Shown: positions 7,794 to 15,921 of the stretch, one piece after another
How the letters are laid out: each line of letters starts with the position of its first letter
How positions within the stretch are numbered: position 1 is the stretch's first letter
From: Caedibacter sp. 37-49
Lineage (GTDB): Bacteria; Pseudomonadota; Alphaproteobacteria; Caedimonadales; Caedimonadaceae
NCBI GenBank assembly: GCA_001898725.1
Contig: MKUV01000073.1
Coordinates: forward strand, 1-35,748
Length of the DNA stretch: 35,748 bases
Direction of reading: 5' to 3'
Notes under the pieces: model-generated
Seen by the model: the letters and a program-made list of their open reading frames with translations, nothing else
Database searches by the model: none
Told to the model about the DNA's origin: nothing
Program-made: the position numbers and the translations under genes

Positions 7794-9767
7794 TTGAAAA
7801 AATTACATTTATCTTTAACTGCTATGGCTGTGCTTATGCTTACAGGTTGTATCGATGAGCCTGTATCTCAGTCTTCAGAAAAAGCATTGACTCAAGAAAA
7901 ATCATTGGAGCAAATTCTTTCTGAAAAAGCCAACTCTGAAGAGAAAGGGCTTGTCAAAGAAGGAATTCAAGCCTTACTTGCAGCTAACTATGAAGAAGCT
8001 TCACAGAAGTTTAACATTGCTCTTGTAGATGATCCTACAAACTCTTGGCTCCATACGCTTAATGCGATGGCTTATCAGCTATTAGCTCGTAAAGGCGATG
8101 TCTCTCAACTTGAAATTGCCGAAGCAGGTTATAATCAAGCGCTTAAGTTTGAACCTTCAAACAGTATCGCTTCTTTGCAATTAGGCCGTGTTAAAAAACA
8201 ACAAAAAGACTACAAAAGAGCGCAAGAAGAGTTTGCAAATGTTCTTTTAATTGAACCAAATAGCTTACCTGCTTTATATGAGCTTGCTTCAACCTCATAT
8301 TACCTTGGAGATATTAAAACTGCTCAAGCTGCTATTGAACGTTATGTTAAGGCAGCTCCTAATAAAGCAGAAGCTTATCGTGCTGCAGGCATGATTATGG
8401 CGGCCGCAGGTAAATCTCCAGAAGCAAATGCTTACATAAAAAAATATGAGAGTTTGGCAGAGAATAAATCTCAGGCCAAATTTGCTAAGCGCCGTGCAGA
8501 TGAATGGAAGCGCCTCTATGACAGCGGCATGATTATGCTTGCTCAAGCTGATGCTACTGCTGCTGGAGGTGATGCTCCTAGTGCTACTACTGCCCCAGAT
8601 CAGAATGCAAGCGCTACAGGTCCAGCGAATGAGGGCTCACCTGGAAATACTCCAAAGCAAGCCGCAGTCCCTGAAGCACCTGCTGGTCCTCAACAAATGG
8701 TAGCTATTGACGCTATCGTTATGCGCGTGAGTGAATTAGGACAAACAAAAAAAGGGAATAATATTTTAGAAAACTTTTCCTTAACACTTGCACCAGGGAC
8801 ACATATGTACGCAAGGGCACGAGGTATTCCAGATCCTAATAATTCAAAAACTATAAACGCCGATGGAACAAGTACCACAACAATTAATGACCCTGGTAAT
8901 ATTGATTTCCAAGGCGTTCCAATGTTCCCTGGAGCTACTAATTTAGCAGCCACAATAGCGGGAGGTGGATCTCCTCTCTCAGTCTCACGCCTTTTTACTC
9001 AAGGAATTTCTTTTGGAAGTGTTAGTTATAGCTTGAATATTGCCAACGCTTATAATGAACGCATAAAAGTACTAGATCGCCCTTCAGTAACCACGATTGT
9101 CGGTAAGTCTGCTGAATTCTACGCTGGAACTGACCTGGCTTTAGGGTTGTCAGGCCAATTTGGTGGTAACGTTGCAAAAACACCAACAGGTATCACAGTT
9201 AAAGTGACGCCAATTGCTTTAGTAGGAGACCGTATTCTTCTTGAAATCGAAGTTCAGGGTAGTTTAACACCAGCAATCATTCCTGAAGATACAACGAAAA
9301 CTTTTACGCGAATTCAAACAAGCCATGTTAAAACAACTGTTGAAATGAAACTGGGCGAAACTCTCATGCTTGGCGGAATTAACTCTCATGAGGATCAAAA
9401 TTCAAAGGATGGCTTCCCTCTTCTTCAAGACATTCCTGTTATTCAGTATCTCTTTTCACAAGAAGTAACCAGTAGCTTCCGTAAGTCCGTTACATATCTA
9501 ATCACGCCAAGATCCCATGAAAAGAACATGGCCGCTATTAAACAGGCCTTTACGAACCCAACAGATGGTCCAACAAATCTCACTGAGCTTGAGATGCGTA
9601 ATAAAGATTGGTTTGCTCCCTATAATAATAATCAAGTCATGATTCTTAAATACGCTGCTCCTTTTTATCGTGAATTCCGCACGGGCGACATTACTCCCAT
9701 TGTTTGGTGGCAAGATGAAGATTTCAACGAGCAAATTACTCAGATCGCAAGCTTTTTATACTACTAA
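7794..9767 (+). CDS. Lipoprotein fusing TPR repeats to a secretin domain
   Basis: The 657-residue protein starts at TTG 7794 after the strong site AAGGGAGGG (7781-7789). A lipobox MLTGC gives a lipidated Cys19. Residues about 52-215 are TPR-like repeats (for example YEEASQKFNIALVDDPTN and YKRAQEEFANVLLIEPNS). An Ala/Gly/Pro/Ser-rich linker covers about 250-301. A C-terminal secretin domain follows (about 303-573), with VLDRPSVTTIVGKSAEF, GITVKVTPIAL, TTVEMKLGETLMLGGI and FPLLQDIPVIQYLFS, plus an 85-residue tail. Secretins form ring pores in the outer membrane for type II/III secretion or type IV pili; lipoprotein secretins occur in type IVb pili. No other secretion or pilus gene is nearby. 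The usual N0/N1 ring-building domains are not evident, and the TPR part seems to take their place. Confidence 0.85.
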   Translation: MKKLHLSLTAMAVLMLTGCIDEPVSQSSEKALTQEKSLEQILSEKANSEEKGLVKEGIQALLAANYEEASQKFNIALVDDPTNSWLHTLNAMAYQLLARKGDVSQLEIAEAGYNQALKFEPSNSIASLQLGRVKKQQKDYKRAQEEFANVLLIEPNSLPALYELASTSYYLGDIKTAQAAIERYVKAAPNKAEAYRAAGMIMAAAGKSPEANAYIKKYESLAENKSQAKFAKRRADEWKRLYDSGMIMLAQADATAAGGDAPSATTAPDQNASATGPANEGSPGNTPKQAAVPEAPAGPQQMVAIDAIVMRVSELGQTKKGNNILENFSLTLAPGTHMYARARGIPDPNNSKTINADGTSTTTINDPGNIDFQGVPMFPGATNLAATIAGGGSPLSVSRLFTQGISFGSVSYSLNIANAYNERIKVLDRPSVTTIVGKSAEFYAGTDLALGLSGQFGGNVAKTPTGITVKVTPIALVGDRILLEIEVQGSLTPAIIPEDTTKTFTRIQTSHVKTTVEMKLGETLMLGGINSHEDQNSKDGFPLLQDIPVIQYLFSQEVTSSFRKSVTYLITPRSHEKNMAAIKQAFTNPTDGPTNLTELEMRNKDWFAPYNNNQVMILKYAAPFYREFRTGDITPIVWWQDEDFNEQITQIASFLYY

Positions 9768-12836: not shown

Positions 12837-13080
12837 AATTATTTTATTTTCTTTTTGTTGCGTTCTTTCAAGTTGCGTTGGTTCTTATATTGTTTTTGAA
12901 GATGATGATCCTAAAGCTTTTGAAACTTTACATGCGGTTCCAGAACGCTATAATTTTACACCTCTAGAAGTATATACAAAAGAAGAACAACAGCTTAAAA
13001 ATGAGTATCAAAAAAATCTTCTCGAAGGTGAAGAGATAAGAAAAAAGGCGCCCTTGTTAGGAGATCCCCCTCACAAGTGA
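12829..13080 (+). CDS. Small lipoprotein of unknown function
   Basis: The 83-residue product has a short signal with lipobox VLSSC, giving lipidated Cys16. The mature part is polar and charged (YTKEEQQLKNEYQKN) and probably partly helical. I recognise no family. The ATG lies inside the last codons of hemB (8-base overlap), so the two are likely co-transcribed and translationally coupled. Many alphaproteobacteria carry small lipoproteins of this sort, and no role in heme synthesis can be claimed. Confidence 0.65.
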   Translation: MNKIILFSFCCVLSSCVGSYIVFEDDDPKAFETLHAVPERYNFTPLEVYTKEEQQLKNEYQKNLLEGEEIRKKAPLLGDPPHK

Positions 13081-13140: not shown

Positions 13141-13515
13141 ATCTCAAAGTCATTCACATAAATTTAATTTGTGGGGGTTGTCTATAAATTGACTTTTGGC
13201 TTCCCTCTCCTCTTATTTAGAATAAGTCTCGAAGCTCGCGCAGCCCCCTCCTGCAATAAAACCCACTTTATTTAATGAGTTTAAGATAGAAAAAGAAACA
13301 GGTGTAGAAAAGTTTAAAAGATAAATTGCTTTCTACTCAAGGATTCATTCACGATAAGTATGCATGATACTTTAAAACTAAGTGTATATGACGTCCATAT
13401 TTTTAAAAAATTCTATAAATCTAGTATTGCAAAAAAGCAAGGTTTTTTACTTAAACATCTAAAAAGATTAGAAAATTTAAACTTCTTCTGAACACTTTAT
13501 TTTATACAAATTTAT
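13141..13515. other. Gap with a possible small gene
   Basis: This AT-rich stretch holds no recognisable gene. An open frame of 43 codons runs from ATG 13360 to TGA 13491 (starts MHDTLKLSVYDVHIFKK, ends LENLNFF) without a good ribosome site; it may be a remnant or chance. A C-rich string GCAGCCCCCTCCTGC at 13239-13253 resembles GCAGACCCCCTCCT at 9977-9990 and may belong to a dispersed repeat. Confidence 0.25.
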
Positions 13516-13547
13516 TTGTTAACCACAAAAAAAATAGTGGTTGACCA
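13516..13547. promoter_or_regulatory. Candidate BirA operator
   Basis: TTGTTAACC (13516-13524) and GGTTGACCA (13539-13547) are imperfect inverted arms separated by 14 bases. The inner AC/GT pairs extend the symmetry. The known BirA box is TTGTAAACC, 14 to 16 bases, then GGTTTACAA. The left arm differs from it at one base and the right arm at two. The site overlaps the -35 element of the promoter of the biotin-domain gene, so a bound BirA would block it. The neighbouring BirA has a DNA-binding domain. That this is a real operator is inferred. Confidence 0.5.
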
Positions 13548-13569
13548 ATTAATCATCTTTGCCTATTGT
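13541..13569 (+). promoter_or_regulatory. Promoter of the biotin-domain protein gene
   Basis: TTGACC (13541-13546) and TATTGT (13564-13569) are 17 bases apart. Transcription would start near 13576, about 30 bases before the ATG at 13607. The -35 lies within the right arm of the candidate BirA operator. Confidence 0.5.
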
Positions 13570-13606: not shown

Positions 13607-14950
13607 ATGATTCAAAAAAAATTGAGTACAATTTTATTTTTTATGAGCTTTGCAGAGATAATAAGAGCTGTCATTTGTGTATCATATGCCACAGTAATTT
13701 CAGACGAAACAGACGCTCAAAATCCTATACTAGCGCATAACCTTCAAATTCCTATTAGTTCAAGTGAAAGAACCATTGATTATCTTACGGCACCAGCTGG
13801 TACATCCCTTATAGAAATACCCCACCAAATTTCTCAAGCAAGACAAAGTAAAGGATTATCTCCTTATATACCCTTAAATCAACAAGATGAGCTTTTGAAC
13901 TATACTTGGTACGTAAATAATAACTTGTGCGAGGAATGTCCTATGCCTGGCAAGATAATTAAAATATATAGCCAAAAAGGACAAAATGTCACACCTGGGC
14001 AAGAGCTTTGTAAGATTGAATCCATGAAAATGGAACATACTATTAAATCTACAATTGATGGAGAAATAATTGATATTTTAGTGCAAGACGGAGATCAAGT
14101 TGGAATACAACCAATCTTAAAATTGCGCCCTTTAAAATGGAAATCTATAAATTTTCAAGATATTTTAGATAATCAAAAAATTTTAAGTACCTTCTTTCCT
14201 TGGGAATCATCTCGTGTAAATGTGCCACCTGCAGAAGACTTAACAACTATTTTATCTGAAAATACAGAAAAGCAAGCTGAGCCTTATGAACCTGTTTCTA
14301 TTCCAGAAATTACAGATGCCGAATCTGTCGTTGTCATCATTGATCAATCAATTAAACCATCCTTACCTTTTAATTCAATAGAAGAAAGCTTAGTACCTAT
14401 TATATCTAAAAATAATAACTTTCCTTCTAAAGACTTAAAGATATCCAAACAACTGACCTTGTTACCCTTTGTTTCTAAACTTCAACCAGAAATGGATTCA
14501 GCGTTTCCTGAAAAAATGGTGCCCCTTTCTACGACAGCTGAAAAACAAATAGCTCTCTCACCGCTTATTTCTGTTGCTCACGCAACAAAAACTAAATCTA
14601 TAATTTTAACTAAGGTGGAACTCTTCAAAGCCTCTTTACTTAGAGATAGAATTAAGAAAAAAACTTATTCTGTCCAAAACAAGAATATTACTGCCAGAAA
14701 ATATTATAAGGATTGGTTTAGAAATTTTCCGCCCCAAAAACTAAACCTACCAAACTTTATGACGTTTAAAAAAATCCCTAAAAATCTTTATTTATTAATA
14801 ACTTTATATTGTTTTGCTTTATTTATAGCACGAGTTAAAAGAAGAGAGATTTCTCTACAAACTAAGCAGCCAAAAAAATTCATACAAATGTTCCATAAGC
14901 AAGCTCTAAATCAGAATTTCTCTTCTGTAAGACACATTAAACTTGCTTAG
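13607..14950 (+). CDS. Membrane-associated or exported protein with a biotin-attachment domain
   Basis: The 447-residue protein contains a complete biotinyl domain at about residues 108-175. It starts PMPGKIIKIYSQKGQNV and has the attachment motif ESMKMEH, with acceptor Lys141, then GEIIDILVQDGDQV. This matches the biotin carrier domain of carboxylases. Around it nothing resembles a carboxylase. Residues 1-28 form a hydrophobic segment ending in VSYA that looks like a signal peptide, although Glu17 and Arg20 interrupt it. Residues about 180-390 are low-complexity, Ser/Pro/Lys-rich. A membrane segment lies at about 394-410 (LYLLITLYCFALFIA), followed by a basic tail. The ribosome site AGGAAG (13588-13593) is rather far from the ATG (13 bases). 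The gene meets birA tail to tail with overlapping stop codons. Function unknown. Confidence 0.75.
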   Translation: MIQKKLSTILFFMSFAEIIRAVICVSYATVISDETDAQNPILAHNLQIPISSSERTIDYLTAPAGTSLIEIPHQISQARQSKGLSPYIPLNQQDELLNYTWYVNNNLCEECPMPGKIIKIYSQKGQNVTPGQELCKIESMKMEHTIKSTIDGEIIDILVQDGDQVGIQPILKLRPLKWKSINFQDILDNQKILSTFFPWESSRVNVPPAEDLTTILSENTEKQAEPYEPVSIPEITDAESVVVIIDQSIKPSLPFNSIEESLVPIISKNNNFPSKDLKISKQLTLLPFVSKLQPEMDSAFPEKMVPLSTTAEKQIALSPLISVAHATKTKSIILTKVELFKASLLRDRIKKKTYSVQNKNITARKYYKDWFRNFPPQKLNLPNFMTFKKIPKNLYLLITLYCFALFIARVKRREISLQTKQPKKFIQMFHKQALNQNFSSVRHIKLA

Positions 14951-15921
14951 TCCTTTAAAAGAGAGGTATCACCATACGAAAACTTCTGAATGCTTCCTGC
15001 CGCATTTTCTACAAGAAGAAAACCTTGATGATCTATCCCACGAGAAATTCCAACTACTTTACTTCCCCCTATATCAAGAGAAACTTTCTGATTTTTAAGT
15101 AAATCATACTTTTCCCATTCAGCTAGAAAAACTTCCAGGCCTTTATGATTAAATACCTCTAGACCTTCAAGCATGGTGAGTAATATATTTCCTATAATAA
15201 TATTGCGATCTAATTTTTCTTGAACAACATGCTCTAAAGAAATCCATGGTTGGTCAAGATCAACAAGTTCAATATCCTTCATATTTACATTTAAGCCAAT
15301 ACCTATAATTGCCTGACAATTCCCATAAGCTTCTCCCATTAACTCGATAAGAATACCTCCCATTTTTCGATTATTTATGTAAAAATCATTTGGCCATTTT
15401 AATTGTATTTTAATTTTAGGATTACACGCTTCAAGAGCATTTGCTGTTAATATAGCGACAACTAAACTAAGCCCTGACATTTCTCCGATATCTTTTTTAA
15501 AAACACCTGAGAAACTACAGTAGATATTGCGTCCAAAAGGCGATACCCATTTTCTTCCTAAACGACCTCGCCCCTTTGATTGATACTCAGAAAGACAAAT
15601 TGTTTGAGTTTTGAAGGGCATTTTGCTTTTTAAATAATGACTTGTTGATTCAAGTGATTCAAAAATTTCTAAAGAAATTTTTTTGTCTGAAAGAAAAGGC
15701 TCTATTTTCTTTTGATCCAATAACAGTAGGGGCTCTTTTAACTGATATCCTTGAGGCTTGGACTGAATATCAATGTTGTATTTGTGGAGCCGTTTAACAA
15801 CTTTCCAAACAGCTGTACGTGAAATTCCTAAAGCATTGCCAATATCAATACCAGAGTGACTTGTTCCATCATTGAGAATATTAAGAACTTGAGTGACTGT
15901 TGAAGAAAGTTTATGAGACAT
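14947..15921 (-). CDS. birA: Biotin-protein ligase and biotin repressor, bifunctional type
   Basis: The 324-residue enzyme makes biotinyl-AMP and attaches biotin to the acceptor lysine of carrier domains. The catalytic core shows the ESTSHYLK region, the biotinyl-AMP loop GRGRLGRKW (residues 117-125), KWPND (175-179) and RKMGGIL with the expected lysine. A C-terminal SH3-like domain ends the protein. Residues 1-62 form a winged helix-turn-helix (GIDIGNALGISRTAVWKVVK), so this is a class II BirA that can also act as a repressor. Many alphaproteobacteria have the short form without it. The stop overlaps the stop of the convergent biotin-domain gene. No biotin synthesis genes are in the window. 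Confidence 0.95.
   Translation of the reverse strand: MSHKLSSTVTQVLNILNDGTSHSGIDIGNALGISRTAVWKVVKRLHKYNIDIQSKPQGYQLKEPLLLLDQKKIEPFLSDKKISLEIFESLESTSHYLKSKMPFKTQTICLSEYQSKGRGRLGRKWVSPFGRNIYCSFSGVFKKDIGEMSGLSLVVAILTANALEACNPKIKIQLKWPNDFYINNRKMGGILIELMGEAYGNCQAIIGIGLNVNMKDIELVDLDQPWISLEHVVQEKLDRNIIIGNILLTMLEGLEVFNHKGLEVFLAEWEKYDLLKNQKVSLDIGGSKVVGISRGIDHQGFLLVENAAGSIQKFSYGDTSLLKD

Follow-up and report, generated by a model that had tools for sequence, protein, structure and literature searches.

A predicted biotin-responsive pair of a repressor-type BirA and a biotin-acceptor protein in Caedibacter sp. 37-49

In a 35,748-nt stretch of the Caedibacter sp. 37-49 genome (contig MKUV01000073.1; hereafter the window), we identified a convergent gene pair that is best explained as a self-contained biotin-responsive unit, a reading to which we assign a probability of about 70%. 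The pair consists of a second, repressor-type BirA and a predicted biotin-acceptor protein whose promoter carries a putative BirA operator. The predicted circuit of BirA, operator and acceptor is well supported by sequence comparison, and our search of the open-access literature returned no report of a circuit of this kind.

The acceptor gene is an open reading frame with an ATG start (13607–14950, forward strand) that encodes 447 residues. It is not a chance frame, since full-length homologues exist at 54–62% identity, dN/dS across the three acceptor proteins is 0.43–0.46 overall, and residues E138, M140, K141 and M142 are invariant in all three copies. An earlier note on this DNA had described a biotinyl domain with the motif ESMKMEH and Lys141. 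Profile searches upheld that description, as PF00364 (Biotin_lipoyl) matches residues 111–167 (E=1e-13, 51.3 bits against a cut-off of 22.1) within a domain that we delimit to residues 108–175 (13928–14131, forward strand) from the profile, a structure model and PDB relatives. ESMKMEH spans residues 138–144, and its conserved lysine codon (14027–14029, forward strand) marks the predicted biotinylation site. A lipoyl domain was considered and rejected, given the motif MKM rather than DKA and the adjacent biotin ligase. With true carrier proteins in the alignment, AlphaFold2 modelled the domain at a pLDDT of ~96, the model being partly steered by those added sequences; it places Lys141 between two strands and matches P. 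horikoshi BCCP (2evb/2d5d) at 0.7–0.8 Å over 68–70 columns. Among solved structures, the domain comes nearest to the methylmalonyl-CoA decarboxylase carrier (MmdC-type, the best match in the PDB) and to carrier domains from pyruvate and propionyl-CoA carboxylases. We consider biotinylation of Lys141 likely.

The remainder of the protein is distinctive. Residues 31–107 (13697–13927, forward strand) form its best-conserved region, with dN/dS of 0.14–0.27, and returned no significant match in Pfam or PDB searches; no relatives of residues 1–107 were found by Pfam, PDB or hhalign comparison, and homology to the N-termini of carrier proteins was rejected at an hhalign probability of 0.3%. Because the biotin domain itself evolves under looser constraint (dN/dS 0.41–0.77 versus 0.14–0.27 for residues 31–107), biotinylation is perhaps not the central activity of the protein. 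The hydrophobic segments reported earlier at both ends are real (residues 9–25 and 394–408) but modest, with Kyte–Doolittle (KD) values of 2.2 and 2.4, respectively. At the N-terminus (residues 1–28; 13607–13690, forward strand), a possible signal peptide or amphipathic anchor ends in a conserved S-[HY]-A/T at positions 26–29 and is interrupted by charged residues at 17 and 20, whose position is conserved in every copy; the C-terminal segment (14786–14830, forward strand) is only ~15 residues long and precedes a basic tail. These conserved charges and the shortness of the C-terminal segment leave export and membrane anchoring unproven. A full-length AlphaFold2 model built from the three-sequence alignment was uninformative (mean pLDDT 30.6) and was discarded as too poor. 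We consider an envelope location slightly better than an even bet. The predicted topology would have the N-terminal part, including the biotin domain, exported, with a short C-terminal anchor and the basic tail inside. In principle a biotinylated domain can be exported, as E. coli passes biotinylated carrier domains through Sec (PMC3418276).

The partner gene (14947–15921, reverse strand) lies tail-to-tail with the acceptor gene, overlapping it by 4 bp, and encodes a bifunctional type of BirA, both ligase and operon repressor. It has the HTH, ligase and C-terminal domains of a Group II BirA (PF08279+PF03099+PF02237), aligns over nearly its full length with E. coli-type BirA chains (8f8u/1bia), and retains GRGRxGRxW, KWPND and the HTH. 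All six HTH-containing BirAs fall on one side of our tree, and a separate, HTH-less housekeeping BirA is present both in the source genome (G000) and in its congener G001. Both members of the pair are under purifying selection. The birA neighbour had been recognized in the earlier note, and the adjacency stands; what that note missed was the HTH repressor type of this BirA, the predicted operator on the acceptor promoter and the repetition of the pair.

The predicted operator, TTGTTAACC-N14-GGTTGACCA (13516–13547, forward strand), lies ~60 bp upstream of the acceptor start codon and carries three mismatches to the published BirA consensus, TTGTAAACC-N14/15-GGTTTACAA, of which TTGTcAACC-N14-GGTTgACgA is a natural Geobacter example (PMC545781). 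Searching for TTGTAAACC-N14-GGTTTACAA with ≤3 mismatches gave one match in the 35.7-kb window and 0 in 100 shuffles. Alignment with the second copy in the source genome, the G002 copy and a related locus in G249 defined a putative promoter (13541–13569, forward strand) in which the −35 box, TTGACC, falls within the right operator arm and is followed after a 17-bp spacer by the −10 box, TATTGT; this placement of the −35 box, with the −10 at 17 bp, recurs in all acceptor copies. The predicted layout, with the operator over the −35 box, is that of a repressor site.

Genome-wide searches placed the same arms in a narrow set of positions. Across ten genomes of the order, GTTAACC-N12-16-GGTTGAC matched four times (twice in G000, once each in G002 and G003), always at an acceptor gene (G000, G002) or at the divergent bioA/bioB promoter (G003), so that the window copy, its paralogue, the G002 copy and the G003 bio promoter share operator arms. 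A stricter pattern matched four times in 385 genomes of the class, and three of these four sites adjoin a BirA of the HTH type; the fourth, in G377, has a GC-rich spacer, and that genome holds no such BirA at E <= 1e-30. The BioY stretches of G000–G003 contain no operator at ≤3 mismatches except one degenerate string in L151. We consider it very likely that BirA regulates the acceptor gene.

Some further features of the window were recorded alongside. Between hemB and the acceptor gene lies a conserved non-coding element (13170–13285, forward strand; L108 7605–7721) that matches no Rfam family at the gathering score and whose folding energy is no better than that of shuffles. Directly after hemB, positions 12837–13080 hold a possible small lipoprotein-like ORF, also recognizable in G002 but absent from the ORF scan at its length setting. 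Positions 7794–9767 encode a possible secretion component, a protein that combines a secretin domain with TPR repeats and begins like a lipoprotein.

Homologues of the acceptor are few and occur together with the regulator. The source genome encodes a full-length paralogue (53% identical, contig C2), and the congener G002 encodes another full-length homologue; all three acceptor genes (3/3 loci) are convergent with an HTH-BirA through a 4-bp overlap, which answers in the affirmative the earlier question of whether homologues always sit beside birA. The two genes co-occur, with two pairs in G000, both genes in G002, and neither in the third congener, G001, whose hemB–ftsZ interval holds other genes. 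Outside the biotin domain, the relatives search across 93 genomes turned up no other similar protein, and viral contigs, phages and plasmids gave matches only to carboxylase-type biotin domains. The 80 best matches in the contig collection lie in frames of 147–205 or 513–990 residues, which, as ORF sizes rather than individual annotations, fit ordinary carriers and carboxylase subunits. One weak match, in G003 (contig C19), was dismissed as lying inside a pyruvate dehydrogenase E2 lipoyl domain, as read from its translation. The second pair (L107) shares contig C2 with umuDC-like genes and with resolvase, MobA/TraA-like relaxase and RecD-like genes, the last three identified from translations rather than by family search, and this gene content suggests a mobile element. 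A PADLOC search for anti-phage defence returned nothing.

The source organism appears unable to make biotin, judging from its gene content, and is probably host-associated, as gauged from its small genome and what that genome contains. No bioB was detected above cut-off in G000, G001 or G002, where the weak matches presumably represent lipoyl synthase, and BioY is present in all three. Throughout G000, the AccC encoded beside AccB is the only biotin carboxylase found, and no carboxylase partner adjoins any of the three acceptor copies. By contrast, G003, from the same family, carries a 51% identical HTH-BirA beside an intact bio operon in which bioA diverges from bioB, accompanied by bioF, a probable bioH, bioC and bioD (bioB passes the curated cut-off; the others were assigned from translations). 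The repressor therefore appears to have been rewired from biotin synthesis to the acceptor, given the operator at the G003 bio operon and a source genome that lacks a detectable bioB yet retains BioY, the housekeeping BirA and AccC. Elsewhere, G022 encodes a 42% identical HTH-BirA beside ychF (C7:20022-20981, L173); no recognizable operator lies near it, and no bioB exceeds the cut-off in that genome.

Established BirA biology provides a template for how the pair would work: once acceptors are saturated, biotinyl-AMP accumulates and BirA dimers repress (PMC4016012). In the proposed circuit, the second BirA (14947–15921) would biotinylate Lys141 of the convergently encoded protein (13607–14950). 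With ample biotin and saturated acceptors, biotinyl-AMP-bound dimers would occupy the operator over the −35 box and shut the acceptor gene off; when biotin is scarce, the operator would be free and the acceptor made. We infer this direction of repression from the characterized systems, and the wiring probably derives from a bio-operon repressor, an arrangement still present in G003. We tentatively suggest that the acceptor serves in responding to biotin scarcity, whether by capture, by sensing or by dealing with a host, and not as a store or a new carboxylase. Counting against this best explanation, apo-acceptor made under starvation would vie with AccB for biotin, at an apparent cost.

The pair resembles several characterized systems in part. 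Like the E. coli bio operon and delta-proteobacterial BirA sites (PMC545781), it combines an HTH-BirA with a palindromic operator, AACC-N14/15-GGTT, over a promoter; unlike in those regulons, the only sites found in G000 adjoin acceptor genes rather than synthesis or transport genes, and the product under control is predicted to be a BirA substrate itself. B. subtilis BLAP (yngHB, PMC4016012) is likewise a stand-alone biotinyl domain accepted by BirA, as predicted here, but it is short (72 residues in PDB chain 1z6h) and encoded beside carboxylase genes, whereas the acceptor has 447 residues, hydrophobic ends and a regulator as neighbour. With MmdC, OadA and PCC carriers (2d5d, 3n6r) the acceptor shares the domain fold and the PMPG...MKM motifs, but it lacks an adjacent carboxylase, transferase or membrane decarboxylase partner and is unrelated to them outside the domain. 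Rickettsiales, also host-dependent alphaproteobacteria, show patchy biotin synthesis (the BOOM bio operon) and BioY import, and all rickettsial BirAs are reported to lack the repressor domain (PMC7750005); here, in contrast, a BirA of the repressor type has persisted in the absence of a bio operon.

A related arrangement with a different cargo occurs in G249, a genome from another family, where a 55% identical HTH-BirA is convergent with a gene for a 298-residue F-box protein (PF12937, E=4e-10) that begins with a classical-looking signal sequence. The same BirA operator lies ~55 bp upstream of the F-box gene (C66:4974-5957, L172), with a very similar promoter core, and no bioB exceeds the cut-off in this genome. 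Homology between the F-box protein and the acceptor was rejected, as no similarity was found; an EAMK string within the F-box sequence appears fortuitous, and Pfam detects no biotin domain in that protein. We regard as speculative the idea that, in some host-dependent alphaproteobacteria which have lost biotin synthesis, the repressor-ligase has become a scarcity sensor that turns on one convergent gene for an exported, host-facing cargo; this would be the envelope protein with the biotin domain in one genus and the F-box protein in a second family.

Other accounts of the pair fare less well. The acceptor could be the carrier subunit of an unrecognized membrane carboxylase or decarboxylase, its CO2 loaded by AccC or another enzyme and used by an unlinked membrane subunit; sodium pumps of the OadA/MmdC/Gcd type are the model for such a carrier. 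Its domain does come closest to the carriers of decarboxylases, pyruvate carboxylase and PCC, with PMPG and an MmdC-type carrier as the top PDB match. We nevertheless judge this improbable, as the sole biotin carboxylase of the genome is the AccC beside AccB, and no copy of the acceptor has a partner gene beside it. The earlier claim that the rest of the protein resembles no carboxylase or decarboxylase subunit is also borne out: none of the NCBIfam carboxylase or decarboxylase models reaches its cut-off over the whole protein, and none of the homologues found is a carboxylase subunit accompanied by a partner gene. Storage of excess biotin, proposed in the earlier note, would fit an attachment site beside a ligase, but it has lost ground and seems to us even less probable than a carrier role: the operator implies that the gene would be repressed at high biotin, the opposite of what a store needs, and an amide-linked store calls for a release enzyme, none of which was seen in the neighbourhood. 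Least probable of all is decay, the pair being the biotin domain of a lost carboxylase beside a relic bio-operon BirA. The absence of a detectable bioB in G000 and the presence of this BirA type at the G003 bio operon agree with such a history, but three intact, full-length copies remain under the constraint described above (dN/dS 0.43–0.46 overall, 0.14–0.27 over residues 31–107), with motif, operator and promoter all conserved.

A horizontally moving cassette, in which a repressor-type BirA, its operator and interchangeable exported cargo spread among host-associated bacteria, deserves more weight, although we rate it below an even chance; it is compatible with the biotin-responsive pair rather than exclusive of it. 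Such a cassette may be kept as much for its own spread as for the benefit of the host cell. Its presence is sporadic, one copy shares a contig with relaxase, RecD-like and resolvase genes, and the BirA shows higher identity to its counterpart in G249, from another family (55%), than to the one in G003, from the same family (51%). Synonymous divergence of the pair (dS 0.46–0.69) is lower than that of syntenic flanking genes (1.0–1.9), which makes horizontal movement likely, with the caveat that these NG86 estimates are rough. Against a cassette, no defined ends were found, and G000 and G002 are syntenic at the hemB–ftsZ site.

Known BirA regulons comprise biotin synthesis and uptake. For the biotin-responsive pair described here, the repressor seems to have outlasted the pathway, and its new target is itself a predicted substrate of the ligase, yielding a minimal feedback circuit. 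Should the acceptor reside in the envelope, it would be a naturally biotinylated protein of that compartment apart from the sodium-pump decarboxylases, and we know of no other. As the F-box case in G249 suggests, vitamin supply may steer host-facing proteins in host-dependent bacteria.
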